This document shows positions 22,481 through 59,280 of a DNA stretch of 64,000 nt, piece by piece (within the stretch, counting starts at the first letter, position 1; every line of letters begins with the position of its first letter). This DNA is from Sabellastarte sp. h YS-2021 (lineage: Eukaryota > Annelida > Polychaeta > Sabellida > Sabellidae): assembly GCA_964017235.1 (NCBI GenBank), contig OZ024938.1, positions 13,073,454 through 13,137,453 on the forward strand, read 5' to 3'. The notes under the pieces were generated by a model. It was not told the DNA's origin. It saw only the letters and a program-made list of their open reading frames with translations, and searched no databases. The translations under genes were made by a program, and so were the position numbers.

Positions 22481-22489
22481 GCTTCCCGA

Positions 22490-23050: not shown

Positions 23051-23053
23051 GAC

Positions 23054-23060: not shown

Positions 23061-23236
23061 GCGACCGTGCACATGCTTTCTGTGTTTATACTGGTTGGCT
23101 ACTGAGAGACGTGTGTCACTTACTGCTGGGGGTTTTCAGTTTTTTTACATTTCACATTTTACTTGAGTTAGGGCAAATTTAACAGTTAGGAGACACATTT
23201 CAGTTTTTTAACTTTTTTGTGATATTCACTGGAGTT

Positions 23237-26940: not shown

Positions 26941-27772
26941 AATAAATCCCGTTGTTTTTTTTGGGTTTTTTTTTGCTGCGCAATATACATGCGCACTGAC
27001 AAAAGCCGCGATTGTCCTCAGCACCCCTGGGGCAGTTAAATGAAACACAATGACTTGGGTATAAAATTATATTACTTTCTACTGTTTCTTGTATCTGGCA
27101 CAATAATTTTTATAAAACTTCAGGAATGAATCCTGTTCATAAAATACATAAAACCTCCTATTATAAGTGAGACCTGACTGCAATATTACTTGTAAGAAAA
27201 GAAAAAGGGGGGAAAATATAAGTTTTGATCGTGACCTGCCAGGTCAAAGGTCATAAAGGATTTTAACCCAATACAATTGAAAGTCAAGTTAAAGGTCAAG
27301 AGCAAGGCAGGTCAAGGTCACAGGTGACCTGTAAGGTCACTGTGAATTATGCATTCAAGGTGAAAAACCTACAAGTCCCCAGAAATTTTTCTTGTTAAAC
27401 ATACAAGCAATCAGGTCTCACTTGTTCAGTGTGTTTTTATTTTAAACTGAAATGTTTGTGGTTCAATTTACACGATTTTGACATGACCTTGAGAATTACT
27501 GTTTTAAAGGTCATGGTCCACCTAGGTGGATACTATATGATCTCAAATTTTATTTTGACTAAACTACTGACCAGTTGAAGGAATGAAAAGCCAACTGGTG
27601 ATGAGACCTAAAGGTATAATTATAATGAAATTTAAACAAAATGACCCGCTATGTACGACCTTGGAAGAGTTGATACAAGGTGAAAGGTCATGTATGCAAT
27701 GTTGTATATACGATTATGTTCACTATAGGGTTGTAAATACGTCATGATATCACCCAAGCACCAAGTATGGAG

Positions 27773-28789: not shown

Positions 28790-28837
28790 TCAAGGCAGTG
28801 AGGTCTATATGAGTAGGGATCCAGATGAAATCTGGTA

Positions 28838-30427
28838 CTAAATTTTTAAGCCTGTCATTATCCAAGCTTGAACCTGTCCACCTGGATAACAAATCTGCTG
28901 TGATATTTTTTGACCTGAGATGTGTTGGATTTTTATTTGAAAATTATACATGGCAGATATAAGCCAGATATTTCTGGCACATACTGCAAGGGTATTGTCT
29001 TTACATCTGCCTGTGGTGAGAACCTCCACCACTGGTTGGTTGTCACACCAAATTTTTATTCTTTTATTAGCCCAGTGACTGGCCCAAACTTTACAAGCTA
29101 CCACTATGTTGAGTATTTCTAGGTGCACTATGCTATATCCCATAAAACCTTTGGGTAATGGCAAACTATAGACCATGTTATGAAAAACGGCACCTAGGCC
29201 TGTAAGTGATGCATCCAGATGCATTTGAAAGTGACAATTTGAGTGGTCATAATAAGTAACTCCATTATAATGCGTCAAGAAGGCGTCAAACCAGCCCAGG
29301 TCTAGGAAAAACTCCTTTGTTAAGAGTATTTTCTTAACATCATAATTATCTCTAAGAAGTTGTAGCATTCGATTGAGAAAAAACCTAGCAGGTTTGACAC
29401 ACTTAGTGATATAGAGTAATAGTCCCAGAAGAGACTGCAGATCAGTTTTACTACAATATGTTTTATCAAACCAGGATTTACACGTTGTTATAATTTCTTG
29501 TAACTTTTCCTGTGGTATAGATATAGTTCTATTAATAGAATCCACTAATATTCCCAAACAAGTGACAGAGGTAGCTGGAGGAACTAGTTTTTTCTGACTT
29601 ATGTCTAGACCAAGATCTTGAAGAAGATCCAGTAAAAACTGATAAGAATTCATTATTTCAGAGGGTAAGCCAGTGTATATGAGGTCGTCAATGTAATTAA
29701 ACAAACCTGTATGACCATGTGACGTCATGATATACCTGATAGCGTCAGAACATCTCTGAAAAAACAAAGAACCATGACGAAATCCGAACGGCGTCGAAAC
29801 GTCAATATAATGACGCTGATCCACTTGGAAACCTAATAAGTCAATGTCTGCTGGGTCGACCCTAAGATGGCGAAACGCCCTGCTAATGTCAACTTTATAT
29901 AACTGAGCAGCAGGTCCTAATTTAACCAAGGAATCTGTAATGTTATCAATAGAAGGATAGTGAAGATCATATATAGTATCTAAATATACATTTTTCTTAA
30001 CTCCAGCATTTACAGATAAGTTTTGGGGCCAACTTAAATCCATGATTGTTCTTTTCTTGTCTGAATCTTGTTTTGCCCTAGTCATCAATGGTGACACATG
30101 CAAATCGCATGGAATAGTATCAAAAGGGCCAATAATCGCCTCATGCTGAAGTTCTTCCTCCACATACCACCTAACATGGTCAATATCTGTGAGAGCCGAA
30201 GTGTGGTTGTCACTGGTGGAGGCAAGAGGACACGTCCTATCAAAGTCTAGAGGAACTCCATAGTGTAACAAGTCCACTAACTGTTGGTCCCAATAATCCT
30301 TAAGATAATATTGCCATCTATCTATATTTAAGTGGGAACTAACTGGTATTCTACATTTTAAATAACCACTGTACCACTGTTTTTGATTATTAGATGAGCT
30401 TGTAATACGTCTGGGATGTGTTGCCAT
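28838..30427 (-). CDS. DIRS-type element: reverse transcriptase and RNase H
   Basis: The RT shows the YKVDISRAFRHLRV region, STPFGFRHGS and the FNYIDDLIY catalytic box. The RNase H part shows HLDASLTGLGAV, LEILNIVVACKVW and KIWCDNQPVVEVL. This combination is typical of DIRS-group RTs. The region copies the element's RNA and removes the template strand. Confidence 0.9.
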   Translation of the reverse strand: MATHPRRITSSSNNQKQWYSGYLKCRIPVSSHLNIDRWQYYLKDYWDQQLVDLLHYGVPLDFDRTCPLASTSDNHTSALTDIDHVRWYVEEELQHEAIIGPFDTIPCDLHVSPLMTRAKQDSDKKRTIMDLSWPQNLSVNAGVKKNVYLDTIYDLHYPSIDNITDSLVKLGPAAQLYKVDISRAFRHLRVDPADIDLLGFQVDQRHYIDVSTPFGFRHGSLFFQRCSDAIRYIMTSHGHTGLFNYIDDLIYTGLPSEIMNSYQFLLDLLQDLGLDISQKKLVPPATSVTCLGILVDSINRTISIPQEKLQEIITTCKSWFDKTYCSKTDLQSLLGLLLYITKCVKPARFFLNRMLQLLRDNYDVKKILLTKEFFLDLGWFDAFLTHYNGVTYYDHSNCHFQMHLDASLTGLGAVFHNMVYSLPLPKGFMGYSIVHLEILNIVVACKVWASHWANKRIKIWCDNQPVVEVLTTGRCKDNTLAVCARNIWLISAMYNFQIKIQHISGQKISQQICYPGGQVQAWIMTGLKI

Positions 30428-32524
30428 TGAATAGCGGGACCTTGATATAATTTAAGCGAAGTCTGAGGTACAAAACCAAAGTATCCACCAGTTTGTGCAA
30501 TGCATCTTTGTTTTTCAACACACATTCCATTTGTTTTGCATCCCCATTTTACATCAAAGATGTGTATGGGTTTAGAACTTGTCTCATGAATACTATTAAG
30601 GCTACAGTTTTCGTTTAAATTCATGTTCAAATCAGTCACATGATTATACACGTTTTTATGTTCATGACCCTGACATTTACTGCCCCCTTTGTGAATCATT
30701 GGATTGGTTTTCTTAACTTCCATGGAGGTTTGCTCCATGCATGTGTCACTACTCGGTTGTATGTTGCAAGTTTCAGTTTTGTCACCATTGGTAACCCGTT
30801 GGCCGTCTGAGTTCAAATTTTTAGATTGACTAACCATGTTACGAGATATTTCAACAGTAGGGCCTGAATGCACTAGCTTTTGAGTACAACTACCGTCATT
30901 CTGTATATCTTGTAATGGAAGAAATCTATTCTGTAGGGATATTTGAACTTTGTCGGGCATTGGGTTTCGCTTACCCCCGGTCACACTAGCATGGAGTTTT
31001 GCAGAAATAAGTTGCTGTTTTGGTATGTCATCATTTGCCTTTTTTACAGAATGTTTTACAACATTTTTGTTGCCTAAACCTGCAGGAGCTTGATGAACCA
31101 CTTTTGATTTTTTTACAATATTCGAACCCAAACTCTGAGCTACCTGGGTACCTTTCGTGCCTAACGCCAAGGCTTGTGCGTACGTTTTTCCAGGAATTGT
31201 CTTTTGAAAAGTTTTCCAACTGTGGAACCATTTAAAAGCTAAATTCTTGTTTGCCTTATATTCATGTTTTGAATTAGACAGAGGCTTGCTATGAAAAATC
31301 CTACTGTTTTGAGTCAGGGCATGTCCCGGAATTTCCATGCCCTGACCTAGTCGTTTTTTGTTAAATTTTTTCGATTTTTGCTTCGACATTCAATTTCTGG
31401 GTGGGGGTATGTCTTGCCCCCCATGGCAAAGCATGCTGAACAAATATGCTTGTACATGATACCCTTGGTATCATGTGTCTTACTAAAAGAACAAGTTCCT
31501 TGATTGAAGTATGTACAAGGCAATGTCTTGTTGGATTTTTGAGTCTGTTTTCTGATGGTTGAAATATTGTGGGATGGAGCAAGGTGCCTCTGTGCATTCG
31601 CACGCCTAATCCTATCAATCTTATCAACATCTTTGTAATTTTTTACATCACCCTGCTCCATCCTACCCAAAAGTACGGCGTGGCTGGCTCTTGCTGCATC
31701 CCAAGAAAAATCTTGGGCATCTTCTAGAAGTGATATTAAATAATCTAACATTGAATCTTTATTTTTGGCATCTGTCTCATCCCTCATGATGCGACAAATC
31801 CAGCCACCCATTGGGACATTGATAACTGGTCATACTGTACATGTTCTTTCTTTGATCCTGCCAAAACATACTCTTGAGGCCATTTGACCCTGTGGGGAAC
31901 TACAACTTCAACAGACCCACCCCTAAGTGATTTAATTTTTGTACCTGCCTGGCTATCTTCCACCAAATTTTTCAACCGTTGCTCAACCTGTGCTTGGATG
32001 TATGCATCCTGTCTTAACACACTTAAATTTGGAAGTGTTGGAGCAGATACTTGTGATGGAGGCAGTGTGACCGGGGGTTGAGGCACAACAGTATGTTTTT
32101 TAGATTTATTTTTCAACTTTGTAACATCGTTACTTTTTTTACATTTTTTCCTACTTTCTATCATATCTAAACGTTCAGTAATACTACCTAACTGTGCCAA
32201 TATTTGCAAATTTATCTCCTGCTGAGAAACCCCTGCAGAACTGGGGGTATTGGAGCTACTTGAGCTACTTGGTACTTGTTTATCAACTGCAGTACTCTCA
32301 CTAGCCCCTAAACGCTCAGTATCTGATTCATTATTTGACATACTGTCGTTACTGTCGCTGCCAGAGTCGGAGTCGGACACCTGACCTGTTTTGGAAGTAT
32401 TCTGTTGACTCTGCAAGAGACTTGAAATAAATCTGTCATCTGACACTTCAAATTGGATGGGTATAACAGCCTCACTGCCACCAGAACGCAAGTTGTAAGC
32501 TCTCCTGTCGTTCATGACTATCAC
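30358..32524 (-). other. DIRS-type element: gag-like coding regions
   Basis: Three open regions (31784-32524, 31347-31811, 30358-31389) precede the RT. The first is Ser-rich and polar. The second has a Cys/His cluster (CTYFNQGTCSF ... CSACF) of the kind found in DIRS gag-like proteins. The third is Lys/Asn-rich and not recognised. They probably package element RNA; that is inference from position. Confidence 0.6.
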
Positions 32525-33036
32525 AGTAACATAAACAATAAAAACTAAAAACCCTAGACACAGAATATAAATATATTCTATGTAAACTGGTAAAAAGTAA
32601 TTCTTGAGTTGTTTCCTCGTGGATGGTCAGCATGCAAATGGAAGAAGCGTGGTCGCTTTTTTTCAATTGACCAGTGGTCAGCCAATCACAGCCTGCCACA
32701 ATGCCGTACAAGGAAATTTCTAAATTTTTTAACATTTTCATACCAAAGACCCCCCCAGTGCTGACCTTGTCAACACCCACATGTCGACTCGTATAATTTA
32801 AACGATTGAGCTTGATTTAACACTACATTTAACACATTCTACAGGTCATAAAACAATGGATAATTAAGAAGATTGAGGAAAACAGTGTATACCAGTTGGT
32901 CAACATTCTCCACAAAAACCATTATCTGCAATACATTCCCGCTTCTTCTTGGGATGAGAAAAAAAACCCAAACCGGAGATTTTTGAGGTGAACGTTCTAC
33001 CCGGGGTTTTTGTCCATAGTCTCCCAAACTTTAATT

Positions 33037-33592
33037 ATGCCCCTTCCACACTACAGGTGGTAAGTCCCATGGTTGAAGTTTTACTCGGGGGACGGAACCA
33101 CCCCCAGGTCGCCCCATTTCATCGGATTTGTTCACACTACAGGCAGACAACCATTGATTGGACACGGTTTTTGTAACCGTCAATAACAGTATAATGACAG
33201 TACTACAAATGTTGGTCACCAAGTATAGCAACCTCCACTAACCTCAACTCACCTTTGGTATCTGTGGGAAGAACACATTGCAAAACGACCAATACCTCCA
33301 CTCACCTTATGTCGTCTTGTTACACCAAAGGACGACAGAATCACAACCTTATACACACCGTGGACCATTCGGTTGCCATAGTAAGAAATTCATATTCGCA
33401 TGCACAAAATCATCTGCACATGCTCACGGTACCAAATTCAGAGACAGAAATTTTAAACATTTCAAAACTTCCATACGACTCACAGGGTAATGGACAGTTA
33501 CTCGCAACAACAACGGACATCAGACGGTGATCCAAGGACAGGGACATTTCACGGGTTATCACGGATGATACTACTAGTGTGAAACGGGCATT
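33037..33592. mobile_element. ~556-bp MITE, CCCNTTTCACACTA type (copy 2)
   Basis: It is identical or nearly identical to 15562-16117 by eye, including both terminal repeats. Confidence 0.65.
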
Positions 33593-34038
33593 AAACCCTA
33601 CATTTAATCACATGAAATAAACAGCAATAAAGATGTTTTATTTAAGTTTTTCTGAATCAACATTAGCTTAGTTACATGGAAAACACCCAAATTACTTACA
33701 GCAGAAAACTTGAAAAGTCCCCATATCAGGTTGAACTTGAGGTAGATTTTAACTGGACTTTGCGAGATATACCTTTATAACTGGACCTCACAACAGCTGA
33801 CAGATGAGTCACACTGATAGGGCCACTTGCCACGTCCTACCTAAGATCTTTCTAAAATATCTTGCCATTTCACAATAGCAGCCTTGATTTTTGTGATAAA
33901 CATGGTAGTTCTAATATGTTTAGTTGTATAAAACCTTGATTGGATTGATAAACATACAACATACTAGTTTTAAGACATGTGTAAAGTTATATGCAGCATG
34001 CACCATTGTACATGAATAATTGCTTTAAAGATAATGGA

Positions 34039-34274
34039 GTGGCCATGGTGGCAGAGTGGTAACACTCTCGCCTCCCACCTCTGAGGCCAGGGTTCAGTTC
34101 CTGGCACGGCCTCAAGTGGGAAAGCTGGTAGTTGCTTGCCGTTGGTTGGCAGTTTACAGTACAGAACCCTGACGAACTGTATGTACTGATTTCCTCTGTC
34201 CAAAAGAAAATTACCCGTCCTGATATGACATTACAGTGTTGAAAGCGACGTAAAACCCCAAATAAATAAATTAA
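34039..34274 (+). mobile_element. tRNA-derived SINE, full length (copy 2)
   Basis: It has the same 14-bp TSD (34025-34038 and 34275-34288), A and B boxes and tail as 16564-16799. Only a few substitutions separate them. Confidence 0.9.
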
Positions 34275-34459
34275 TTAAAGATAATGGACTTTGTATCCAG
34301 TTCGAGAATAGTGTTATTGTGTTGGCTACCGTTGCCATGGTTTTACTGAAATTAAAAAAAAGCATTTGTGATAAAACCCCTTAATACACATATATATACA
34401 ATTCATCCAGAATACTCTTGTACAGATTATCATCATCCATAGTACACATAGGCTTCTAC

Positions 34460-34905
34460 AGTCCTAAATAGTCTCCGTTGGTTGCCTGTTAGATACTACA
34501 GTACATTTGAGAGGGCTAAACTTGTCTACAATCACATTTATGATCCCCTATAGCAGAAAATACGTCACAGGACAGGGAATACCTGATAGAAGGTTCCTTG
34601 AGGCTCCTCAGTTTAGTCCATCCTTGTATAAATCAAAGAAGTCATTAACTTTTGCTGTTCATACAATCTGGAATGAATTGCTTAATGGTATTTGTTCTGT
34701 TTCCTCTGTGACCTTTTTAGGAAAAACACAAAGTTTATTTATTCTTCAACGCCTTTCCATCAAAGTTTGTTATTCAGCCAGTGTCCGAGGAAGGAACCCT
34801 CTATCAACAACCATTTCTATGCTCACGGACTGACAAATTTTGTTTATGATTGTTGTGACTTAGAGCCTGTTTAAATGTAGAGATTAAGTGCTATAAAAGT
34901 CAACA
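34460..34905 (+). pseudogene. Decayed CR1-like LINE RT C-terminus (copy 2)
   Basis: This is the duplicate of 16985-17430, with the same WLPVR and IWNELLNGI signatures in different frames, so it decayed before the duplication. Confidence 0.7.
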
Positions 34906-36399
34906 CAAAGAAAAGAATATGTGTGTATAACTACCACTACTTTGGGGTTTGGAACATTCACCTACCCCACTTTCATCTCTCCATCCTAAAATGCTAAAAC
35001 TCAAATTCTAACATTCATTTCAAGGATAACTTAAATTCACAGCCCTAAATCTCAGATCATACCTACTAACATTCTGGCATATGGTGTAAATCCTATAATC
35101 GCACTTAATTTAATTATATCAGTAATTCAAATTATATAGTTAAGGTCACCGTCTATAAACTAAATTCTGGTGACCTAGATTCACAAAATTCATTTTGAAA
35201 AGTGTTTTTGACAAATTCTTGTAATACTTTGTAAATCTTAAACTCAATGGTAGCTTAAATTTAAGACCACCTATCTTTTTCAGTACAACAGTCATATAGG
35301 TAAAGTCACCTTATGTCAGCTAAATGCTGGTGACCTACTTGAGCTGGTCTTTGTGTGTTATGTTAAATATCTTTACATTTGTATCTATGAACGTATACAT
35401 GAAACTAGTATAGATTAAATAAAATTTATATTTTTTTTCAATACATTATTTCAATCATCTGGGCCTGAGGCAATGTTATAAAATCTCCTTTTAGGGATTA
35501 TTAAGACTAAAACATATCACTCCTAAGATACCACTATTCCACGGTGGTAATTTGTCGTGGCAGGGAGTTGGACATGCTGGTACTATCTCAGCAAATACAT
35601 TCCCAACCTAAATAACTGAAAAGCCAAAATAGTACAAGCAATAAGATAACACTCAAGATCATTAATGTGGTTGGAAGGACAGAGGAAAAGGGGTATTTAT
35701 AACACTTTTTTGGTTGTAGTTGATTTTAATTACCCTTTTTCTGCATTTTGCAGTTGTTTGGGACTGCCTTCTGTTTCATCTAACCAAACTTTCATTAAAT
35801 TTTTGGACCATCAGATTCTAAAACAGCTATCATTCAAAAATGTTAGAATCTTTGAATGACCAAGCTTTCACAAACTCAGGGTAAATTTTTAACATTTGTT
35901 AACAAGAAGTAACCTCTAAAATTATTAATTTGCCTTTTAGTATCCACCAGGATCTGTTTTAGACATAAATAGAGGGACATATACAGACCAGCATATACTT
36001 TTTAGTATTATGACACTTACCTTATACAAGTATTACAAATTCATTAACAGGTGCCAATTTTCTGAGATTTATATACAGAATTCACAATGTTACCCACTTT
36101 ATGCAATTACTGCATCTAGGATCTCTAAATGCAACATTTTAAGATGACATCGAGGACCATACACCAGCCATCCATATAGACAATCGAGGACCATACACCA
36201 GCCATCCATATAGACAATCGAGAACACAAAGGATAACTTTCATGTTCATCAAGGTGAGGCTGATGAAATCAGGAAAGGATTTGTTAAATGTGTCTAAATC
36301 CCAGTGAATCTCTTCCATCAATTATATTTCTTTGATGGTAGTTAATCTTACTCAGAAATTTTAGTGCCTGCAGGTTAAAGGAACAGTCATGTGTTTATT

Positions 36400-36990
36400 A
36401 CCCTCACCCCCAGAGGGGAAGGAGCGAAGGCATTTAATTGAGTTTGTTTGTCTGCCTGTGAGCATAACTTGAAAGTCATCCACACTTTTACCACCTGGAC
36501 TTCGGAAGTTCCCCTTTTGGCACAGCTGATTAAAGAGTCAGCCTCGTGTTTTCTCAACCCAACCCAAAAGGGAGGGATGAAGGTTTATATATTTTGTATA
36601 ATTTGAAAACTTCACATGAGATCTTGGTAATATTTTTATATGGGTTGGGGCCTAACCGTGGCTCGGTCCTACTCAGACAGGGTCTAGATCTGCATGACAA
36701 ATCAAGAATTGTTTTTGTTATTCTATGGCAATACCCACATTTATACCTCAAAAGCTATTCATCGGATAGGATACAGAAATATTTCCAGTATACTCTATTT
36801 ACTGTTATTGCGTCTTCCTTTTCTTTCCCAGAATATTTGTAACCAATGAGTGCAGAAAATTAATATCAGTTGCTGAGATATCACCAAAGAGAAAAATATC
36901 AGCTATGGCTTTGTCCTGATCATTGGGGAAATAATCAAAGTATCCTCTTGGTTTTATTCTGATATGCACGAATGAACACAGTATAAATGT
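36400..36990. repeat. Dispersed repeat, ACCCTCACCCCCAGAGGGG type (copy 2)
   Basis: This is the duplicate of 18930-19510, but visibly more diverged (several percent) than the flanking parts of the duplication. Confidence 0.4.
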
Positions 36991-37456
36991 CCTTTACAAT
37001 GCCGGGGCATTTGAAATGCCACTCTCTAAAGCCAACTTGTCTGGTTCCTGTATTTTCTCTGCTAATGACGTTTCGGTATCAAATGCCATTTTTGTAATGT
37101 TAGCAATGACCTTTAGCATCAGACCAGAAAAAGGCAATATAATGTGTTTTCACTCAACATACATGGTGCTCATATTGATATATATTATGAACTGATAATT
37201 TAGGCATTTTGAAAATAGAAAATGTGCATCAGTTTAAATCATTAATTGTCACTCACAAAGTAAGTTTTCATTTTTAAAGAAATTGCCGAAACAAATATTA
37301 GTTTATTTTATCACTAATATTTGATGTTATGTTTGCCAATACACTGGTTACATAAACTTAGATCCTTTTATAAACAAAATATAAAAAATGTTAGTGTTCA
37401 AAAAATAAAAATAATAAAAGTTCATGATTCATGGCAATAAGATCCACAAAGTATTA

Positions 37457-37675
37457 CAGGGGCGGATCCAGCTTTTAAATAAGGTGGGGTTCACATCAGA
37501 CATACCATAACTAGGGGGATCGGGAAAAACTTAATTTTTGGTAAAAATATAGTGCATTTCCTGTAAACTTAACACCACTCTCAAGAAATAATTTTGTACT
37601 TTGGGTTGAACCCCTTTATATTATTTTTCTTGGGGGGGTTCAAACCCCCTTAAGTCCCCCCTGGATCCACTAGTG
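37457..37675. mobile_element. hAT-type MITE (copy 2)
   Basis: It has the same ends and target duplication as 21614-21841. Homopolymer G and C tracts are shorter here. Confidence 0.85.
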
Positions 37676-37985
37676 AGTATTACAGTTCAGGTGGATTAGT
37701 AGACTAGTCACCAATTTGATCTCACTCCATATATTTTAAAAGACCACTAATTTTCTGTTACTAAGTAAACTTTGATGTTACACAGGTATGCAATGTGCAG
37801 TGCAGTACAGGTCAGTAACATAGCTTCTTTACAGCAAAGTTTACTTGTAGCAGGCACTGGCATGCAACACTTCAGTTCTAATAGCACCATTGTAAAATTT
37901 GAATGTGTCAAAATTTGTAAAATTCATAAAATAAATATTCAAGATTTCAGGTAAGAGAGTTTTTTGTTCACTCAGTACTGATCAA

Positions 37986-38315
37986 ATGGCCTTCATAAAA
38001 CAGCCAGTCTTCTTAGCCACCAATATTTCAACACTTTGTGCAACCTCTTTGATAAGCATACCCATGTCAAGAAGGCCATACCAAAGTATCCCTACACTGG
38101 TTTCACGCAAAATGCCTCAAGGGGAAATACGAGAAGAGCATGGTGACATGATAAGTCAGCCAGAAATCACAGTAGATACTTTTCTGCTGCTTGCCATTAC
38201 AATTTCATTTTTGCACAGTCTAAAAGTACTTATCGTAGAATTATGCCCGGAGATGAAGGAAAACCCAAAGCAATTTAGAATAGTTTCTAATGTGGGTGTT
38301 CCACCACATGACTAA
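37986..38315 (+). other. Unassigned 109-codon open frame (copy 2)
   Basis: It gives the same protein as 22151-22480. See that entry for why it is not called a gene. Confidence 0.2.
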
Positions 38316-38888
38316 GCTTCCCGATTAAGGGTTTTTTGTAGTCGGTTTCAAAAATTTGCTTAGTCCCAGGCGTTTTGTATGGATCGGTAGTTGTTGGTCG
38401 GGGCCGTGAGAAAAATCAAACATGTTTGATATTTCTCACGACCCAAACCGATTCTTATTTCATGCCGTCAACAAAATGCCCAGTCTCAGGCTTCCTCAGG
38501 CCTCCTCAGACCAAAATTTACACAGTCCTATGTTGTCTCAGGCCTCCTGCGACTCTTAGTCACAGGCATCCCTAGCTTAGTCCCAGAAAGCCTGTTGTCA
38601 GTCCCCAACTCATAACAGACCTTTGAAGTTTCATGCATGTGAAAAAGAATCGGTTTCATTAGTCCCGGGAAGCCTCAGACCGTCTCAGGTGTCCTGCGAC
38701 TAAGCCCCGACCAAGTGAAGCCGATCCAAACCGATCCAAGCCGGCCTCCTCAGGCCACCTGGGACCACACAAATTTAGTCTGCAATGGTCTGAGGACGCC
38801 TCAGGAGGCCTGGGACTAAGTACTGATTAAGTACTGACTCTTTTCTGCGTGCTTCAAACCAGGAAGAGGCAATGAGGGGGTCTGTGAC

Positions 38889-38895
38889 TATATAA
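38889..38895 (+). promoter_or_regulatory. TATA box of MADF pseudogene (copy 2)
   Basis: TATATAA sits in the same context as at 23054-23060, about 180 bp before the ATG at 39072. Confidence 0.55.
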
Positions 38896-39071
38896 GCGAC
38901 CGTGCACATGCTTTCTGTGTTTATACTGGTTGGCTACTGAGAGACGTGTGTCACTTACTGCTGGGGGTTTTCAGTTTTTTTACATTTCACATTTTACTTG
39001 AGTTAGGGCAAATTTAACAGTTAGGAGACACATTTCAGTTTTTTAACTTTTTTGTGATATTCACTGGAGTT

Positions 39072-40202
39072 ATGAGGAAAGAGAAAGGAGGAAAAAGAGG
39101 AAAGAAGAAAATAGAGGAGAGGCAAGAGGAGAGGGAGAAGGAAGGTGTAGAGTTAGAGGAGAGGACAGAGGAGGGGACAGAAGAGAGGATAGAGGATACA
39201 GAGGAAGGATTAGAAGTTACTGAGGAAGCTTGCGAAGAAGATGAGAGGTGTGAGGAAGAATCAGAGTGCCACTCAGCAGCCAAGAGAGCCAGGGTTTGTG
39301 CTACATTCATTGACAGCCAAGAAAATGCCATTGTTGAGTTTGTGAAGGCGCACCCAGAGCTGTACGACAAGGAGCATGGACGTTTCCACAACAGACAGAG
39401 GAAAGAGGCTCTCTGGGCAGAAATCTCTGCAGAACTGAAGCTCCAGCCCTTTGATGTCAGAAGGTGGTTTGAGTCCTAGAGAACTCGTTATGGCAAGCTC
39501 TCTAAGCTACAGGTTTCCTTAAGACCCACATCAGACATAAGGGGGCAACAGAAGTTCTGGGTTCGGGGCCAGTCCCAATACCAGCAGGCATGAAGAATCT
39601 CAGGAATCTACTACTGATACAGAACATCTTGAGTCCAGTGTCCTGAGGGAGAGTAGGAGTCAACCAATACCAGTTTCTACAGATTCCAAGATACTCGAGC
39701 ACTTTGACCAGATGAGGACACTGATCTCAGGTTTCCTGCAGCAGAAGTCAGACAGGCAGCCCTTCTTTTACTACGTGGCATCAGAGGCTAAAAAGATGAC
39801 AGAATAGGAGTTTGAGGACCTCAAGGGCAGCATTTTTAGAGACATTGAAGAAGTAAAGAACACTCATAGATGTCAAGTTCTACCCAAGAGATCAGCCACT
39901 ATTACCAGAGAGTCACAGAAGGTCGGGATACTGCCAACAACCACTCAACAGGCATCTAGTTCCACCCAGACAGCAGCAGGCAGCAGTTCCAGCATTTACG
40001 TCTACTACACACCCAGCCCCATTGGCTTTGGAAACCCTCCATCTGTGCTCACAGTGCAGGACGAGGGCAGTAGACAAGTGGAATACTAAGCCAGATACCA
40101 GATCTAAAAACACAGATCATTGAGCAGCCTCAGCAGCCACAGCAGCAGCTCTACACCATCACCACCACAGCACCGCCTCAACAGCAGCAGCCTCCTCAGT
40201 AG
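39072..40202 (+). pseudogene. MADF-domain protein with Gln-rich tail, broken (copy 2)
   Basis: This copy keeps the sequence beyond the breakpoint. After the MADF and BESS-like parts it continues with SSSIYVYYTPSPIGFGNPPS, and in another frame a Gln/Pro-rich C-terminus (IIEQPQQPQQQLYTITTTAP) ending at TAG 40200-40202. A TAG at 39476-39478 breaks the MADF domain, and a second stop precedes EFEDLKG, as in copy 1. The acidic repeat near residue 35 is shorter than in copy 1. A histone-type stem-loop lies 33 bp after the final stop. Confidence 0.75.
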
Positions 40203-41864: not shown

Positions 41865-42862
41865 CTACTTAACTACCTGTCATGATACTAGTGATACTGG
41901 TAAATAATGTGCAGAAAGTGATGTTAAAGCCTAATCAATGAACCTACCATTGCAGTTAGTGTTTGAATCTACATGGGCATATCTATGTCAGGAAGGATGA
42001 GATTAGACTTACTAAGTAACAGTACATAACATTCTAATGTATCCAAGAGGTCCTCAGTGGCCTAGTGGTTAGCAAGTTTGGCAAGTTTGGCACCTGGGGA
42101 TTAATGACTATGGAAGGCATGGGAATACACATGTTTTTATGTGAGTGAATTATTGTGTAAATTATGCTGGAATCAGTTACAAAAATATGAGAATATTACT
42201 ACAGGATAAGAGGTTGTAACACATAGATTATCTAGTGCTTGTTAAAGAGAGAAGTTTGTGCCTTAAAGTTATATATTTGATAAAAATGCTTTTCAAAAAA
42301 GCCATATTATATATGCCAAGGCATCTAGAAATCACTGATGCATGAAGGGTGGTTTCATTAGAAAGAGGCTAAATATACACACATTTTCAACAGGGATAAA
42401 CAACCTTTAATAATTTCTCTCTGAACTAGGTCACAATACACCTGGTTTTTTGACCATGACCCTGTTGTAGTATTGATACCTTTGACAATACTGTGCTTTT
42501 TATCTTGTTAAATGATGTGGTTACAACAGACTTTCTATGACAGACTTTAAACACTATAATTTTATTGGAGTCTTTGACATTATTTCAAGTTGACCTGATC
42601 AACATTGTGTAATGGTCTTGCTGCAGGATGTCTTTATACCTTCACTGGTACTTAATGGTTAATTATATGTACTCTGACTTCACTGGTGCTGATACTAACA
42701 AATAGTGACAATAATTCCAGTCTTTGGGGAAAGATTTATCAAAATAGATATTTTTACATAGAGTGACCTTTTTGTCTGGCTTTGAAAATACTACTAACAA
42801 TAATTCCAGGCTTTGTGCTTATCAAGTTACAAACTACTTGGATTGTGAATGGTAATGTAAAC

Positions 42863-44119
42863 ATGGAGACAACTCCACTTGCTAAACGACCTAACACAGC
42901 AATGGAATTTTCCCCAGTAGGAGAGTCACAGCTAGACTTAGCTGTGTTAAAAAAGCTGTTGGATGAAAAGTTTTGCGAATATGTGTCTCCCCTGAAGGAA
43001 GAAATTTCTAGCTTAAAAAAAACATTACAAGAAACTAAAGATCAGTCTGATGATGCTTGTCATCAATTGAGGCAGGACTATGACCTTCTTAAGAAAGAGA
43101 ATGAAAGTCTTGCACATCAGTTGCGAAAGCTAGAATCACAACAACGCAGAAACAACTTAAAAATTTTTGGATTAAAAGAAGAAAAGGGAGAAAATTTAGA
43201 GGAAAAAGTCCTGAATTTGTTTAATAATTATCTACAGCCAGGCGATAAATCTAACCGCAGAACATTTGAAAGGACCCACAGACTTGGTTCTTTTTCCCCA
43301 GCCGGAAATCTTGCCACGATTGTAAAATTTGCTCACTTTAAAGACAAATTGCTAGCCTATAAAGTGGCATAAAATCTTAGAACAATAAAGGTGTTCTTAG
43401 CGGATGATTTCCCTGAAACTATTGACCACAATCGCAGGATGATAGCCCCAGTGTATTCACCCCTAAAGTCCATGAAAGAAAGCCACGCTTCCCCTCATGT
43501 GAAAACAGTTTCTCGAAGGCAAGACAACCTTTTTCTTAATGGTAAGATGTACACCATTAGTGATTTGAATCAACTACCTGAGCCTTTGCAACCTGAAAAA
43601 ATCTTCACTCCTTCCAAGAATGGAATCACAGCTTTTTTCTCAAGGTACAGTCCTTTCTTTAGTTTCTATCCTGCACCTTTTGAAGTGAAAGGAACTACCT
43701 ACGACAGTATGGAAAAATTTCTGTCTATCAAAAAAGCCCAATTGTTCAATGACCAACAGGCTGCAATGGAAATTGTTAAACAGTCAGATCCCATCGTTAT
43801 AAAAAGACTTGCCAAAAATATCTCTGGATTCAAAGGGGACATTTGGGAAAAAGAAATAAGCTCTATTCTGGAAGAAGGATTATCTGCAAAGTTTGAGCAG
43901 AATGATAGGTTGGCTAAGTTGTTAATGGCAACTGGCAAAGATACCATTGTGGAAGCAAATAAACATGACTCTCTGTGTGCTATCGGACAAGACCTCTTTC
44001 ATGAAGATATCTGGGATAGAAAAACATGGCAAGGCAAGAACTTAATGGGAAAAGCTTTAATGTCTGTCAGAGACAAATTACATAAGATGCAAGAGCAAGG
44101 AATTTATCTTTTCTCATGA
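42863..44119 (+). CDS. LINE ORF1 protein: coiled coil + RRM-like + NADAR domain (one internal stop)
   Basis: ATG 42863 begins METTPLAKRPNTAMEF. Residues about 22-92 are coiled-coil (LKKLLDEK ... LRKLESQQ). Residues about 95-190 match the L1 ORF1 RRM-like region (RRNNLKIFGLKEEKG, RTHRLGS). Codon 170 is TAA (43370-43372); the same frame continues NLRTIKVFLADDFPETIDHN. Residues about 253-406 match NADAR (YbiA/DUF1768): AFFSRYSPFFSFYPAPFEVK, DSMEKFLSIKKAQLF, EEGLSAKFEQNDRLAKLLMA, TWQGKNLMGKALMSVRDKL. The usual WGIG is CAIG here. NADAR proteins act on ADP-ribose-linked substrates, including ADP-ribosyl-guanine. A role in protecting LINE nucleic acid is inference. The full protein would be 418 residues. 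Confidence 0.85.
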
Positions 44120-45541
44120 ACCTCATTCAAACTCAAGAACTGTTTATTCCATTATCAATAGGTAACTCGTAAGCTTATTTTTCCTTAGCCTGGTAATTTA
44201 CCTTTCTGACATTGTAAGAATAACATCTGATGAACTTTTCTTCAGTTAAACTTTAAAGCTCTTATAGTGGTTCACATGTATGCAAATAATGTTTTTCCTA
44301 TTCTAAGATCTCTGTCCAATTGAAATATACTTCAGCATAAAATTTTTTGAATCATGTTGCAAAAACATGGCTTTATGGGCATATCATTTTTCACATAGCT
44401 ATAGCACACACCCAATTTTTTCAGTTAAGACATTATTTGAAAATACTTGGCCACATGTTCTCCTCTGAAATAAAAATGCCATAATAATGTTTAAAAGTTA
44501 TATAATATAACATGTTTTCATTGTTATTGCAGCAAAAGTAAGATTAACCAAACCATGTCATATGTGCCTGTATATCATTTTTGCTGTACTGTTTGTATCA
44601 ATATGTGATGGTTTATTTTTTAAATGCACAGGTTGAAAATGTTTTTCTGTATAATTGTAAAATAATGTATAATTCCATCATACTCAGCCTAGATATAATT
44701 TTATCTCATCATCTGGATAAATATGTGGTGTTCCCTTGATTCACAGGTTAAAAATACTCTTCTGCAAGATGTATAACTCTGTAAACACCCAAATTCTACA
44801 TAATCCCCTAGTCAAAATGCCATTAATATTATGCACTTTTCATGTGCAAGAAAAAACGTTCAGAACTTCTAAACAATTTTTATGAGGGAAACATTTCTCC
44901 TAAATAAATATGAATATATTTTTGTTGTATCCTTCTTTGTTACTGTGTGATGATGCATATGGTCATTATATCCCCGTTCTTTATAGTGATTTGGTAAATT
45001 ATGCCACCTTTTTGAAAAAAAAACTGGATAAAAAAAAATTTTAAAAAAAATTCCAAATTTGAGTAAAATTTAAACTTTCAGACGAACACAGTTATAACAA
45101 TTAAGGCCAAATTAATCGAAGCTTAGTTTCTGTGTTTATTGCATAGATTCACATTTCTTAATAGTAAAGGATAAATTTTGATTCCTGTCCCGTAGTTTAC
45201 AATCATTAACAGAAACTGATTTCAGCAAAACTATTTTTTCCTGTATACTTTTTCCATGTTTTCATGTGTCTATCTTACCCTACTTATGTATTTATGTAAA
45301 TATTTTTGTTTTGTTATACAAGAAGTTGGTTTTTTGAATATCAGCATGTTTGATTTATTTATTACATTGGTTTTATGTTTCATAAGATTTTCAGTTTTGT
45401 CACAAGTGACTGATATATTATCATGGTCTTATGGGCCCCATATGTGTTGGTCATATAAAGGTACACAACAGTTTTCCAAAATATTCAATGTTCAGGATAA
45501 TAAATCACTTATGTGTGGAGCTCTTGTGAACACAAGTCACT
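44120..45541 (+). other. AT-rich spacer between LINE ORF1 and ORF2
   Basis: The spacer is 1.4 kb, unusually long for an inter-ORF region of L1/Tx1-type elements. It holds an A-rich tract near 45018-45050. An open frame at 45256-45555 lacks motifs and overlaps the start of ORF2. I see nothing coding. It could hold a second promoter or a ribosome-entry function, but nothing in the sequence shows it. Confidence 0.6.
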
Positions 45542-48500
45542 ATGCTATTGGGTGATCAAATAAAAATTATGTCGGCAAATTGTCAGGGTTTAAGAGATAA
45601 GTTGAAACGAACAGATGTTCTCAACTACTTTAATCATTTTAGTCCTAATATAATCTGCCTTCAAGACACTCACTTAACAAATAAAGAAGCGAATGAAATC
45701 CGGTCATTATCCGGTTATGACTGCTACATATCTGGAAAGAAAACCAACTCTAGAGGTGTGGCCATACTTATTAGAGGCAATTTCAAATATAAAATTCATA
45801 ATGTAGAAAATGATTCAAATGGCAATTTCCTCTTGATAGATCTTGACATTGCATCAATATCTGTTCGATTAATTAACCTATATGCACCCAACTCTGATTC
45901 TCCAGAGTTTTTTCAAAATTTGAAGGAATTTATAGATCAAAATCCCCAAGACTACTTAATAATCTGTGGAGATTTCAATTTAGTTATGCATCCACAGTTA
46001 GATAGTTTTAACTATGTCAGCATCAATAACCCAAAGTCAAGAAATTTACTTTTGGAAATGTTACACACCTACACTTTAACAGATGTTTTCAGATATATGC
46101 ACCCGGATGTCAAAAGATACACATGGAGACGAAAAAATCCTATTAAACAAGCAAGATTAGATTATTTCATTACATCAGGCTCTTTAACCGATCTGATATC
46201 CAGCTGTAAAATTCTGCCTGGTTATAGGTCAGATCACTCCATACTTGAACTTAGCTTGAACATAAATACTTTTCAACGTGGAAAAGGGCTCTGGAAATTC
46301 AACTGTAGCCTTCTTAAAAATGAAAATTATTTAAAATTAGTAAACAAAGCTATAAAAGATATAAAGATGGAATATGCAGTTCCTGTTTACTCTTATGAGT
46401 ATATCAACTCAGACCAAGAATTTAACTTACAATTTACAATCGAAGATCATCTTCTCTTAGAAATGCTTTTAATGAAAATAAGAGAAACTACTATTATATT
46501 TTCCTCCTCTCAGAAAAAGATAGAAACAACTCTTGAAAAAAATTTGTTAAAAGAAATTGATATTCTTGAGAGTTCAGTTGCTTCGCATAATCCACCAGAA
46601 ATTCTTGAAACTAAAAAGGAGGAGCTATTAAGGTTGCGAAAAAAAAAAACTTATGGGACATATTGTTCGATCTAGAGTAAATTGGCTACAAAATGGAGAG
46701 AAACCATCTAAATTTTTTTGCAATCTGGAACGCAAAAAATTTATTGATAAAACTGTTAAGAAGGTATGTCTTGAGACCAGAGAATATATTACTGACCAAG
46801 ACGGCATCTTGTGCCAAATAAAAGACTTTTATGCTAAATTATTCAAAAGCAGAGACAAAGAAATACCTGACATAAAACTTACTGAAATTTTGAAAGACCA
46901 GTGTGTTACAAAATTAACCAAACTCGAAGCAAGTTCACTAGAGGGACCTTTAACAATTTCTGAACTTAATTTTGCTCTAAGAAAAATGAAAAATAATAAA
47001 ACACCGGGCGTTGATGGCTTTCCATGTGAATTTTTTAAGGTTTTCTGGTCCAATTTAAAATATATAATACTGAAAGCCCTAAATTATAGCTACTATAGTG
47101 GCAATCTATCCATAACATTACGTCAATCAGTGATTACCTGCATTCCTAAAGGGGATAAGAAAAGAGAATTTTTAAAAAATTGGCGTCCGATTTTCTTACT
47201 GAGCATTTTATACAAACTCATGGCTTCTGCCATTGCAGAAAGGCTCAAAACCGTTTTAGATAAACTGATTTCTAAATCTCAGACAGGTTTTATCAAAGGA
47301 AGATATATTGGTGACTCTACTAGACTGATATATGACATTATGAACTTCACTGAAATAAGGAATAAAAATGGGTTATTGATGCTGATAGATTTTGAAAAAG
47401 CCTTTGATTCAATTTCATGGAAATTTATGTACAACACATTGGAATTTTTTGGCTTTGGAAAAGAATTTATAAGATGGATTAAATTAATGAACACAAATTT
47501 TGTAGCTTCAATACTCCAAGTTGGAGTGAAATCAAATTTCTTCAACATTGAAAGGGGGTGTAAACAAGGGGATCCCATTGCTCCTTATTTATTTATTTTA
47601 TGTGGACAAATTTTATACTATTTAATACATAATAACTTGGAAATTAAAGGTATAATAATTAGTACAGAAGAAATAAAAATGACACAGTTTGCCGACGACA
47701 CCACTCTTATACTCAATGGTTCACAGAGCTCCTTACAAGCTGCCCTGAATACTATTGAAATATTTGGTTCCTTTTCAGGACTACATATGAATACAAATAA
47801 GACAAAAGTTATTTGGATTGGAAGGAAGAAATATTCAAAAGATAAACTAAAGGTATCAGTTAAACTGGACTGGGGGACTACTCAATTTAAATTATTGGGA
47901 ATTATATTTTCAGTTGACCTACAAGAAATGATTGCTTTGAATTATTCAAAAGCTTTAGACAATTCAAAACAAATACTAACCTTATGGAACAAAAGAAATC
48001 TAACTCCCTTTGGTAAAATAACAGTAATAAAAACCTTTATTCTTTCAAGATTTAATCACATATTAATGATTATTCCATCACCTGACAAACATTTTTTTAA
48101 AGAAATCAATTCTTGCCTGTTTGCATTTCTTTGGGGTAATAAACCAGACAAAATCAAACGTGATTATATCACTCAGGACTACAGAATGGGAGGCTTAAGA
48201 ATGGTTAACATAGAGCTTTTTGCACAATCCTTAAAATTAACTTGGATGAATAAACTATTTAAAAGTGAACCTCCACTGTTGCTAAATCTTTTTGAAAACA
48301 CAATTTCACCAGTTTCAAAGATTGCATCATATGGTTCAACTTGGTGTGATATTTTGAGAAAAAAGACCCAGAATCAATTTTGGAAGGAAATTTTGACATC
48401 TTGGGTAACCCTCTGCGAGAACATTCCTATAAGGTCTAACACTGAGATACTGTCAACTCTATTATGGTATAGCCCCAAAATTTCAAAGGCCATTCTTAAT

Positions 48501-49352
48501 TTACCTAATTGGAGTAAGCAGGGAATAATTGTTGTTGGTGACCTGCTTGACAATAGAGGTAATATTATTAGCCAAACAAAGTTAGAAGATAAATATACCC
48601 ATTTGAAAATGAATTTCTTGGAATACCTGCGAATAAAATCCTGTGTTGAATCGTATGTGAAAAAATATAAGAAAGATGGTCTCTTTTATTTTCAGCAGCC
48701 ATGTCTCCCCACACATTTACTTCCTATTTTTTCCCGCAATTCAGGTTCAAAACATTATTACAACATTCTAAATAAACCTGTCATAAACATGAATTGTAAA
48801 ATTGCATGGAATACTGAACTCAACCTAAACATTGATGAAATCACATGGCAACAAATATTTAGGATATGTTCTAAACTACCTCAGGACCACAATCTTCTAT
48901 GGTTTCAGTATCGAATTCTCCATCGTGTTCTTGGTACACGCACACTACTTGCAAAAATTGGTAAAGCAACTTCACCTGACTGTTTCTTGTGCAAATCTGC
49001 TCCAGAAACTATATTCCATATTTTTTCCCAATGTCCAGATGTTCTGGATTTTTGGAAAAATGTTCGAGTGTGGGTGAAAAACAAGACAGGACTAAATTTA
49101 GATCTTGGTCCTTTAGAATATATTCTAGGATACCTAAATACTGATACTAACTCTCTTCCAATCAATATCTTACTTGTAGCAACCAAATATTATATTTATT
49201 CCAACTCAAGACTGTCAAAGACCTTATATATACCAGAATTACTGGAAAAAATTAAAAGTATATATGATGAACAAAAGCTTGTGGCAACACTGGAATTTAA
49301 ACAAGAAACATTTAACAAAACTTGGCGATTAATAAAACTTTTGATTGATTAA
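45542..49352 (+). CDS. LINE ORF2: APE endonuclease and reverse transcriptase (one frameshift)
   Basis: The N-terminal part (45542-46675) is an APE-type endonuclease: MSANCQGLRDKL, ICLQDTHLT (Asp where many L1s have Glu), LINLYAPN, ICGDFNLVM, LDYFITS and RSDHSILEL. The frame then shifts in an 11-A run at 46639-46649. The RT follows (46653-49352): NNKTPGVDGFPCEFFK, SQTGFIKGRYIGDS, IDFEKAFDSISW (motif A), GCKQGDPIAPYLF (B), FADDTTLIL (C), PFGKITVIKTFILSRF, and a zinc knuckle CFLCKSAPETIFHIFSQC. It nicks DNA and primes reverse transcription at the target site. The shift could be a real mutation or a homopolymer assembly error. Confidence 0.92.
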
Positions 49353-49704
49353 ATGAGGCAAAATGTAAACCAAAGGAAAAATTATTACTGTGTATTTTCT
49401 TTTACTTCTTGTAGTATATACTGTACATAAAAAAACATGATGTATCAGTTCAAGTTATAACTTTTACAGTGATAATACTGGGTCACCTCTGCCAGGGTGT
49501 GTGTACCCCCAGTAAAAATGTAATGGCATTTTTCATCATGGAAAAAAATAATAACAAAAAAAAAAGTTTGGCACCTAATCATAGGCTGTCACCTCTGTGG
49601 GTTCGAGTCCCACAAGTGGCAATTCTGAGGACCTGTCCCAATATGACCCTGGCTGTTGAACGGGACGTAAAACCCCAACTTTGACTTTGATCTAATGTAT
49701 CCAA

Positions 49705-51469: not shown

Positions 51470-52557
51470 CTGCAACAGGTTTTTTGGGCCAACAAACACT
51501 TGACATATTGGTCCAAAGAACTCAAACATAAAGTAACACCTTATTTTAAAGAATGGGTACTTGCAGGAATTACGCATGTGCAAGATATAAAATTTATAAA
51601 TGGGAAAATAGATTGTGGTTACATATATGAAAATGTGAAAAAAACAAAAGAAATATATTTCATGAAATAAGTATTCACAACAAAGTATTAGCGCCATTTA
51701 AGGATAAGATTGGTATGAACACACCTGTTTTGAGAAGCGACAATATCTTTCCTGTCTATAAACTTAATGAAAAAACTTTGCAAATAAATTATAAAAAGTA
51801 TCATTAAACAAAACAATCGAAATTTCTTTCCAAGAGAATTACTGGAAAAAAACATTAGAAAGTGAAAATTTAAAATTCAACATAATATATACCAATAAAA
51901 TTGGTACGCACACACCTGTTTCGAGAAGCGACAATATCTTTCCTGTCTACAAACTGAATGAAAAAACTTTGCAAATAAATAATAAAAAGTATCATTAAAC
52001 AAAAAAAAATCGAAATTCCTTTCCAAGAGAATTACTGGAAGAAAACATTAGAAAGTGATAATTTAAAATTCAACACAATATATACCAATAAAACTAAACA
52101 CATTAAAGATACAAAAATTGCTGAATTCAGTTACAAGGTACTGCATTGTATTCTGCCATGTTTTGATAATTTAAAAAAGTGGAAAATTTTGGAATATGAC
52201 ACGTGTCCTCTCTGTCATGTCAAACATGACATTGTACATTTGCTGTTTTCTTGTGTCAAAGCAAAAGAAATATGGAAACATGTTGGTATGATTTTTGATA
52301 TAAATATAATGCTGTATAATATTATTGGGGTTTCGAACATCAGTTCCAATTTTGATTGGTTCTTATCTTTTCTATCTTATTGTATATACAAAGAATGGCT
52401 ATGTCATTATACAGACCTAAATGTTTGGTGTAATGTCAATGTATTAAGTTATGTAAAATCATGTGTAGAAATTCAAAAAGGTATTTATAAAAATTTAGGC
52501 AATGATTTTGCTGACATTGTAAAATGTTTTGAAAGATTTACTTTTATGGTGAAATAA
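51470..52557 (+). pseudogene. LINE ORF2 C-terminal fragment with internal duplication, in gene B intron
   Basis: Pieces read WVLAGITHVQDIKFINGKID and later IAEFSYKVLHCILPCFDNLK, then the knuckle CPLCHVKHDIVHLLFSCVKA followed by KEIWKHVG. These are L1/Tx1 ORF2 C-terminal signatures. A segment of about 190 bp is tandemly duplicated (51710-51899 and 51900-52092). Frames are broken before 52189; 52189-52557 is open to its stop. It lies in the intron between exons B' and C', in antisense to the gene. Confidence 0.8.
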
Positions 52558-57573: not shown

Positions 57574-58026
57574 CTGAAATAAATTAGTCAAATAATTTGT
57601 TCATGAGTTTTTCAGAAATTAATCTGGGTTTCAAAACAATAGTCACTCACTAACAACTATCACTATAGTTCGTTGGATAAGAAATATACTGTTTTGTGGT
57701 GATTTTCTTCAATCAATCTGGAATCATAAGATTGGTAAGTGGGGCGTTATCAATATTTATGGCAAATTATTGATCTGTTAGCTCTATCTAGCAACATTGT
57801 TCCACATAAGATTACAAACACAGAATTTATATTTTATTTTCACAAAGCTAATAAACAACCAAGTATATTTATGTGTCAAAAATGTTAATTTAGCCTTCAA
57901 TTAAGAATGAATTTACTCTAAACTGGGAGAAGGAAGGATCTTAATAATATATCAGTTATTGTTGTTACAAACTTTCTGTTGAATAAGTTTCAATTGATGG
58001 TGATGATACACATGACTTATACATAC

Positions 58027-59280
58027 TGTATCCGGCAATGAAGCCATAGCCTATAGCAGAATTCCCTTGACCATGTATCAATGCTGCAAAGCCAATGTTG
58101 GATGGGGACACAAGAGTGTGTGCTATTTCTCTGGCCCCACTAACTGCTACTTCAAGTGTTGAGAAACCTTCTCCTGTGACAGTGGTCCATCCTGTTAAGG
58201 CTGTTCCATCAAATAAAAGAGCGTTGATATTTGGTGTTTCTGTCAGATACACGATGCTCATGTAATCTGTTATAGTTGATGTGGGAATTTCAGGTAGGTT
58301 AAAGATAACATTAGTGCCATAATTTTCAGTGTCAGGTAACACAGCCATGAATACTGCACCACCAGATGAGTTTACATCTGTGTTTGTGCTGTACTGGGCA
58401 GCTTTGCAAGGCTTGTTGCACAGAAATACTTCATTGGATCGAGAATCTAGGGTCACTTCAAGAAACTCTCCTCTGTAACTGATAGTGCTTGATACAGTCC
58501 CATAGGTGACTTGTGTATCATCTTCTAAAGCTACTATACGGACTAAGGTGTCATCACTGTAACTTCTATAGTTTATAGTGTGTGAAATGTACCTGGTGCC
58601 TGCAAGCTGGTTTGCTGGAATAGAACCCCATACAGGTCCTGCAATTTCATCTGGGTTTGTATCAGCACAGGGATTCCCCGAGTTAACAGACACTTGCTTA
58701 TCAGCAATGATATTATAACCTGTGAAGTCATAGCTTCTCTTAAGAACTTCTGTATTAAGAGTCCTGTTGGTGTAGACATCTTGCTTGTTTAGTACAAAGG
58801 ATGATATGTCTGTTGGGACTCCATCATGAAGTTTTTGAATGACAACATTTGTGTCATCTTCATATGCTACTACAGAAAAAAAACTGCAAGTTGCAGAACT
58901 CACACAGGTGATATCATTGTTGGATTGGTAAGAGATTACCATGTATTCTTGTGTACCAGTATGCAATGGGGGAACAAGAATGGCATCCATGTTACCATCA
59001 TTCCTATAATTTGAAAGCATAACAGTGACATCAGCAGCAGCTTCTATTAAGATCCCCTTGCTTTCTATTCCCTCAACAACGCGCACAGTGTAGGAATAAT
59101 ACAGACTGAGGGTATCATTAGCATTGATGTTGTGGGTATTGGTTGCACCTCCTATATCAGTAATGTTAGCTGTTGTATCTTGCTTAGCATTGATATAGAT
59201 TATACAATCTCCTTCATCCCAATCAGATCTAGACTGGGAAAATGACAAAGCAAAGACTTTTCCCTCTGAGCTTTTTTTAG
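58027..59280 (-). CDS. IgGFc-binding-like gene B, main exon with IgGFc-binding domain
   Basis: This 1254-bp exon is phase 1-1 (418 codons). The acceptor is TTTCAG before CTAAAAAAAG and the donor is GTATGT (58021-58026). Motifs match gene A throughout: SSEGKVFALSFSQSRSDW, VMLSNYRNDGNMDAILVPPL, YMVISYQSNNDITCVS, GNPCADTNPDEIAG, GTRYISHTINYRSYSDDTLV, ALEDDTQVTY, CNKPCKAAQYSTN and YMSIVYLTETP. This is the FCGBP-type IgGFc-binding N-terminal domain, usually extracellular. Some 60-65% of residues look identical to gene A by eye. The open frame runs past the donor into the intron (stop at 57965), which is not part of the protein. Confidence 0.92.

Follow-up and report, generated by a model that had tools for sequence, protein, structure and literature searches.

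The ORF1 protein of the LINE described here ends in a full NADAR domain, and we regard both the reality of the fusion and the identity of the domain as close to certain. In the predicted pocket of this domain, the residues linked to hydrolysis of guanine-ADP-ribose are retained, while the wall that would hold the pyrophosphates is altered, including a Cys-Ala pair in place of Trp133-Gly134. The element is a fairly recent insertion that is now slightly broken, and it lies on the + strand of the window, by which we mean the whole 64-kb stretch of DNA that was analyzed. Its features are as follows, in window coordinates.

42083..42095 (no strand): 5' target-site duplication (TSD) AAGTTTGGCACCT, an exact 13-nt match to 49564-49576 and the longest in the searched flanks
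42096..42862 (+): LINE 5' untranslated region, from the TSD to the ORF1 ATG
42863..44119 (+): ORF1, 418 codons and a stop, interrupted by a single internal TAA
42938..43165 (+): long helix resembling a coiled coil, residues 26-101 (AlphaFold2, block pLDDT 84-94 for residues 31-100)
43151..43609 (+): presumed ORF1p core (RRM plus C-terminal domain), residues about 97-249, placed by motif resemblance and low-confidence secondary structure
43370..43372 (+): in-frame TAA within ORF1, residue 170
43643..44083 (+): NADAR domain, residues 261-407 (PF08719, 3.8e-36)
43976..43981 (+): Cys-Ala codons in place of Trp133-Gly134 (C372-A373); Cys or Ala in 0 of 98 comparators
44120..45541 (+): ORF1-ORF2 spacer, 1.4 kb
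45542..46675 (+): first part of ORF2, APE-type endonuclease (PF03372, 2.2e-14; LINE-1 ORF2p, 2.1e-31)
46639..46649 (+): A-run of 11 A, region of the ORF2 frame shift
46653..49352 (+): second part of ORF2, reverse transcriptase and zf-RVT (PF00078, 2.3e-36; PF13966, 4.7e-8; LINE-1 reverse transcriptase, 1.6e-54)
49564..49576 (no strand): 3' TSD, 3' of the A-rich tail

Boundaries and reading frames of the element

The two exact copies of the 13-nt repeat enclose both ORF1 and ORF2, and the 7.47 kb between them (42096-49563) form a nearly full-length LINE in the order 5' region, ORF1, spacer, ORF2 (45542-49352) and A-rich tail. TSDs and an A-rich 3' tail are traits of L1/Tx1-type LINEs and both are present; so are the APE-type endonuclease and reverse transcriptase expected of ORF2, here in two parts that a frameshift close to the A-run separates. 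The best solved-structure relative of both enzymes is LINE-1 ORF2p, and the R2 structure (2.1e-16) falls well behind LINE-1 for the reverse transcriptase. Because endonuclease and reverse transcriptase score best with LINE-1 ORF2p, the element is classed from its sequence as a LINE of the L1/Tx1 kind, an assignment made by solved-structure scores that leaves membership of the Tx1 clade proper putative. The preliminary description had placed ORF1 and an L1/Tx1-type ORF2 within one pair of TSDs; the exact repeat and the L1-type enzymes bear this out, with the amendment that ORF2 is frameshifted. The endonuclease motif at 45665-45667 (residue 42) reads LQDTH. We take the corresponding L1 metal-site residue to be Glu (LQETH), so that the Asp may be either a lesion or a family variant.

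The spacer of 1.4 kb is long for a LINE. It is AT-rich (GC 0.291) and has no clear nested repeat, and a repeat search of 42096-45560 returned short imperfect matches only. The sequences that flank the TSDs resemble what are presumably two halves of a tRNA-derived repeat (a SINE reading), with a B-box-like GGTTCGAGTCC.

ORF1 had been described as a single frame that encodes a coiled coil, an RRM-like core and NADAR. With the protein analyzed as read through the internal TAA, the NADAR domain and the long helix of residues 26-101 are both recovered, and the predicted helix fits a coiled coil; the frame itself is split by the TAA at residue 170, and the RRM core was confirmed neither by Pfam or PDB searches nor by structure prediction. 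Against Pfam at E ≤ 1, ORF1 matched neither a LINE-ORF1 family nor an RRM family (the HMMER filters drop most hits above 0.1), and the six PDB hits at E ≤ 10 were coiled-coil or zipper proteins only, with no RRM or LINE ORF1 structure among them. The AlphaFold2 model of ORF1 (pTM 0.50) is confident in the NADAR domain and in most of the helix and poor between them, and the core folded alone (mean pLDDT 42) was too poor for a structure search. Two segments of ORF1, RRNNLKIFG and LFLNGKMYTISDL, resemble what we take to be the core motifs of L1 ORF1p, which we treat as a lead only.

No second copy of the LINE occurs elsewhere in the 64-kb window. Scans with exact 8-residue peptides gave 8 pattern matches for ORF1 and 2 for the second part of ORF2 in the viral_contigs collection, and 88 and 16, respectively, in genome_contigs, of which none was confirmed. 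This silence says little on animal genomes, because exact 8-mers reach close relatives only and the collections are viral and prokaryote. The rest of the window contains a large segment in two copies (12400-24152 and 24153-39987), with paired blocks at 15318-19554/32794-37017 (97.5%), 21160-24152/37013-39987 (96.5%) and 12400-15141/24153-26926 (97.3%). Between blocks of the second copy lies a DIRS-like element (27776-32626, - strand) with a tyrosine recombinase (PF00589, 8.2e-7), a reverse transcriptase (PF00078, 3.4e-9) and, as a weak match below cut-off, RNase H (6.2e-5). A duplicated + strand frame is found at 23183-23665 and 39018-39476, the first with a MADF/SANT-like domain (PF10545, 3.3e-8), and an IgGFc-binding domain (PF17517) occurs in two - strand frames (4159-5463, 9.7e-28; 57968-59335, 1e-32). 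Other LINE fragments with zf-RVT are present on the + strand at 10911-12352 (3.6e-5, below the Pfam cut-off), where identity to ORF2 of the NADAR LINE is 26-30%, and at 51979-52554 (3.2e-7). Tandem satellite-like arrays occupy 12995-14620, 24773-26549 and 62848-64000, the last being related in part, and in inverted orientation, to the other two.

The NADAR domain and its pocket residues

The preliminary description had claimed a NADAR match along most of the domain and had named a PF08719 search of the C-terminal ORF1 region as the check. That search gives 125.2 bits (cut-off 35.1) over profile positions 9-163 of 163, so the claim holds, and the E-value of 3.8e-36 rules out a chance match. Only one NCBIfam model passes its cut-off, that of the riboflavin-intermediate N-glycosidases (TIGR02464, 111.1 bits against 73.7), and the domain also matches phrog_1017 (1.9e-36). 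Among solved structures, phmmer finds the NADAR of Phytophthora nicotianae (8bau, 1.8e-14) and E. coli YbiA (2b3w, 3.8e-10), and a Foldseek search with the predicted structure finds the same two (2.4e-10 and 1.2e-8) and nothing else in the PDB at E ≤ 0.001. The YbiA/NADAR fold is present in that prediction, in which pLDDT is 91-98 in the ten-residue blocks between residues 251 and 410 and 83 in the last block. The alignment that aided the prediction held 39 viral-contig NADAR rows (of 80 pattern-found loci), with L048 and L089 (stops in the given range), L099 and the loci not entered omitted; identity of the ORF1 NADAR to these 39 is 27-39%. The YbiA subfamily is defined by Glu, rather than Asp or His, in the last strand (E125; PMC11543638, PMC11125620), and this residue is present as E364.

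Pocket residues are numbered here as in the Phytophthora NADAR, with contacts as given in PMC11543638, and were compared in 98 other NADARs. The set draws on 109 of 110 loci (one had no hit) and consists of 96 distinct sequences plus two PDB fragments; L009-L016 were left out as repeats of L001-L008. Loci L001-L008 and L021-L038, from phages and plasmids, had been found by tblastn with the ORF1 NADAR as query, and a further group by patterns around E43-K50 (the best 80 of 154 confirmed), and so the set is mostly phage-like. An earlier table of 31 comparators, in which L019 had no hit, agrees with the larger one.

Six pocket residues are kept in the ORF1 NADAR: E43 (98 of 98 comparators), K50 (95), K75 (96), W89 (95), E125 (96) and D130 (95). 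Of these, E43, K50 and E125 (E284, K291 and E364 of ORF1) are tied to guanine-ADP-ribose hydrolysis, although the conservation of the E43-K50 region is inflated because the comparator searches used the ORF1 NADAR itself and patterns around these residues. The patterns leave W133-G134 untouched, and it is here that the domain departs from the comparators: W133 is Cys (Trp in 94 of 98, Tyr in 4), and G134 is Ala (Gly in all 98). In addition, G78 is replaced by Ala (Gly in 95) and R79 by Lys (Arg in 92, Lys in 3), while R93 is Ile at a variable place (Arg 27, Cys 26, Ala 21, Lys 12, Ser 8). The equivalent of Y84 is Phe, as in 72 comparators, and that of D86 is Gly, again at a variable place. Across the 34 columns that are at least 85% conserved, the ORF1 NADAR agrees in only 22, and 5 of the 98 comparators reach no higher share.

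In the Phytophthora structure, W133 contacts the pyrophosphates (PMC11543638). By the D-x-x-W spacing, we assign it to W346 of the nematode protein SNA-3, one of three residues mutated there as counterparts of positions critical in YbiA (PMC9303266); this correspondence is our own. The comparison marks W133-G134 as conserved among NADARs and, at most, as a candidate for being needed in guanine-ADP-ribose hydrolysis.

Age of the copy and possible roles of the domain

One stop in 1682 codons corresponds to about 0.5% unselected change (95% interval 0.01-2.7%); the estimate gives transitions a four-to-one weight and takes 203.8 stops as the expectation per unit of substitutions per site. When the NADAR part was evolved neutrally in 200 simulated runs per level of change, 177 kept an open frame at 0.5%, 107 at 2.7%, 18 at 10% and none at 50%, where the mean profile score was 14.8 bits as against 146.6 for the real sequence. 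Both the lesion count and the simulation start from the present copy and assume uniform, unselected mutation. Since simulated neutral change quickly loses the frame, and since the 27-39% identity to viral-contig NADARs would not have been reached without selection, we infer that the NADAR part was under selection until shortly before the insertion.

With so few lesions, the copy can have decayed little after it was inserted, and the change at W133/G134 is therefore probably older than the copy. The preliminary description had raised decay as one meaning of the WGIG to CAIG change, which the lesion count makes unlikely: even at the upper decay limit, the probability that neutral decay changed both residues is 0.0043, a post hoc figure, as other conserved places could have caught the eye. 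Given this value, simple decay of the pocket was not adopted. W133C/G134A probably predates the insertion, the main way out being a clustered copying error.

Third-position GC is alike in the ORF1 core (0.345) and the NADAR part (0.367), and apart from the two parts of ORF2 (0.295 and 0.278), as for a long-settled resident. On this one copy, NADAR at the C-terminus of ORF1 would appear to be a fixed trait of the lineage. In a tree of 97 of the 99 rows, the branch of the ORF1 NADAR (1.29) is similar to that of the P. nicotianae NADAR (1.15), which speaks for a working domain, but long beside the median of 0.49, which speaks against it. The tree pairs the domain with a NADAR from a Lactobacillus plasmid (support 0.92); this may be long-branch attraction and is given no weight here.

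NADARs act as bacterial antitoxins and are also present in phages and animal RNA viruses (PMC11543638, PMC11125620, PMC9503650). They are reported to cleave ADP-ribose from guanine, as does a eukaryotic member, that of P. nicotianae (PMC11543638), and the E. coli host and phage NADARs that were characterized are likewise reported as active, with the provision that hydrolysis in vitro was by itself not enough for antitoxin activity against DarT1 in cells (PMC11125620). We suggest that ORF1p, in coating the LINE RNA, would carry the domain in many copies to the RNA and the nascent cDNA, where it could cleave an N-glycosidic bond, most likely that of ADP-ribose placed on guanine by host enzymes. 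In the LINE lineage, the ADP-pyrophosphate wall would have been remodeled (G78A, R79K, R93I, W133C, G134A), and substrate or rate may therefore differ from those of bacterial NADARs; judged from the residues, the changes at W133/G134 count in part against full activity. The joint claim, that an L1/Tx1-type LINE has a YbiA-type NADAR as a lineage trait and that the domain acts as a hydrolase on the nucleic acid of the particle, falls in our judgment just short of an even balance, and de-ADP-ribosylation as its mechanism is a tentative proposal that we would doubt somewhat sooner than assert.

As to purpose, the counter-defense against host ADP-ribosylation that the preliminary description proposed is plausible from NADAR biochemistry (PMC11543638) and from clams, six edible species of which are reported to have guanine ADP-ribosylating activity, the enzyme CARP-1 having been purified from Meretrix lamarckii (PMC11209040). 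The narrower version, in which the opponent is a CARP-1-like transferase and an arms race remodeled the ADP wall at W133C/G134A with catalysis kept, seems to us unlikely as a complete account. If counter-defense were true, ADP-ribosylation of nucleic acid would be an anti-transposon defense in animals; should the domain remove ADP-ribose from LINE RNA or cDNA, animals that have LINEs of this kind would be the place to seek that defense, and CARP-1 would be the first suspect in clams.

The altered wall can also be read as a sign that the domain has lost much of its power as a hydrolase and serves as a binding module for ADP-ribose, poly-ADP-ribose or RNA, which would anchor the particle formed by ORF1p where ADP-ribosylation takes place (e.g., at nicked target DNA) or on RNA factors of the host. 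The Cys-Ala pair at W133-G134 fits such a change, and so does domain 1 of SNA-3, a nematode protein with three NADAR domains that is needed for trans-splicing, since the YbiA-critical residues are described as not being conserved in this domain (PMC9303266). A pure binder would, however, be freer to lose E43, K50, E125 and D130, all of which are kept, and mutation of the YbiA-critical type of residues in NADAR2 and NADAR3 of SNA-3 impairs function, with folding effects named as possible by its authors (PMC9303266). We consider binding unlikely. Hydrolysis of another N-glycoside, in which the domain trims RNA ends, NAD-derived groups or riboflavin-pathway intermediates and reverses no defense, draws on TIGR02464 as the sole NCBIfam model past its cut-off; against it, we know of no route by which such trimming would aid a LINE. 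Processing of RNA intermediates has been suggested for the NADARs of oyster and Ectocarpus elements (PMC12477816), but YbiA-type NADARs also hydrolyze ADP-ribosylated guanine (PMC11125620), and we hold this reading to be quite improbable.

There remain two further readings. If the CAIG pocket and the stop were both decay, the copy would be a dead relic and its NADAR mere ancestry. The copy is indeed not intact, with one in-frame stop, one frameshift and Asp at what we take to be the metal-site Glu of the endonuclease, and a clustered reverse-transcription error could have made both nearby changes in one event; yet the low unselected change, the small post hoc probability given above and the further changes at G78, R79 and R93 make a relic very doubtful. 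A host NADAR gene joined by chance to a single LINE copy might be suspected where one copy was examined. Nevertheless, the domain lies in frame inside the TSDs, between the ORF1 core and ORF2, with a base composition like that of the core, and chance fusion is very unlikely, hardly to be credited, because Tx1 LINEs of oyster are reported with apparent NADARs in ORF1 (PMC12477816). It was rejected on the TSDs and the oyster report, and the earlier claim that the LINE itself carries the domain stands on the same grounds together with frame and third-position GC. Our preferred reading remains a resident domain that would act on the nucleic acid of the particle.

Relation to known systems

The fusion is not new in kind, because NADARs in ORF1 of Tx1 LINEs are already in print: PMC12477816 (Genome Biology, September 2025) reports apparent NADARs in ORF1 of several Crassostrea gigas Tx1 LINEs, and NADAR in Ectocarpus Gypsy elements (Gypsy-12_Ec32). 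Among the matches listed in a literature search, we recognized from titles and abstract openings no other report of NADAR in a retrotransposon, and the main texts of PMC11203168 and PMC10294476 contain no NADAR, DUF1768 or YbiA. The C. gigas elements (Repbase), compared here by description, are alike in being non-LTR elements whose ORF1 protein has an apparent NADAR of the YbiA family. Gypsy-12_Ec32 is alike as a retroelement with a conserved YbiA-type NADAR; unlike the LINE, it is an LTR element with the domain in Pol, presumably a separate acquisition.

Human LINE-1 resembles the present element in its endonuclease and reverse transcriptase, two ORFs, TSD and A-rich tail, but its ORF1p is not known to have a NADAR and its ORFs lie close together, whereas the LINE here has the 1.4-kb spacer. 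E. coli YbiA and the P. nicotianae NADAR share the fold and E43, K50, E125 and D130 with the ORF1 domain, and differ in that W133-G134 is kept and that they occur outside any LINE ORF1p. The alteration of this pocket (W133C/G134A) is what is new in the present copy; the window adds a nearly full-length example whose pocket, by its residues, poses a sharp biochemical question.

Animal RNA viruses (okaviruses and others) are alike in that NADAR is carried by an RNA-based genetic parasite, and unlike in that it lies within viral polyproteins rather than a LINE ORF1p. Fold matches to the ORF1 NADAR include Yellow head virus (5.1e-6) and Gill-associated virus (3.2e-5), and NADARs are reported in animal RNA viruses that include annelid and bivalve picornaviruses (PMC9503650). 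LINEs with NADAR would be another genetic parasite to carry the domain besides phages and RNA viruses, which points to a shared pressure.
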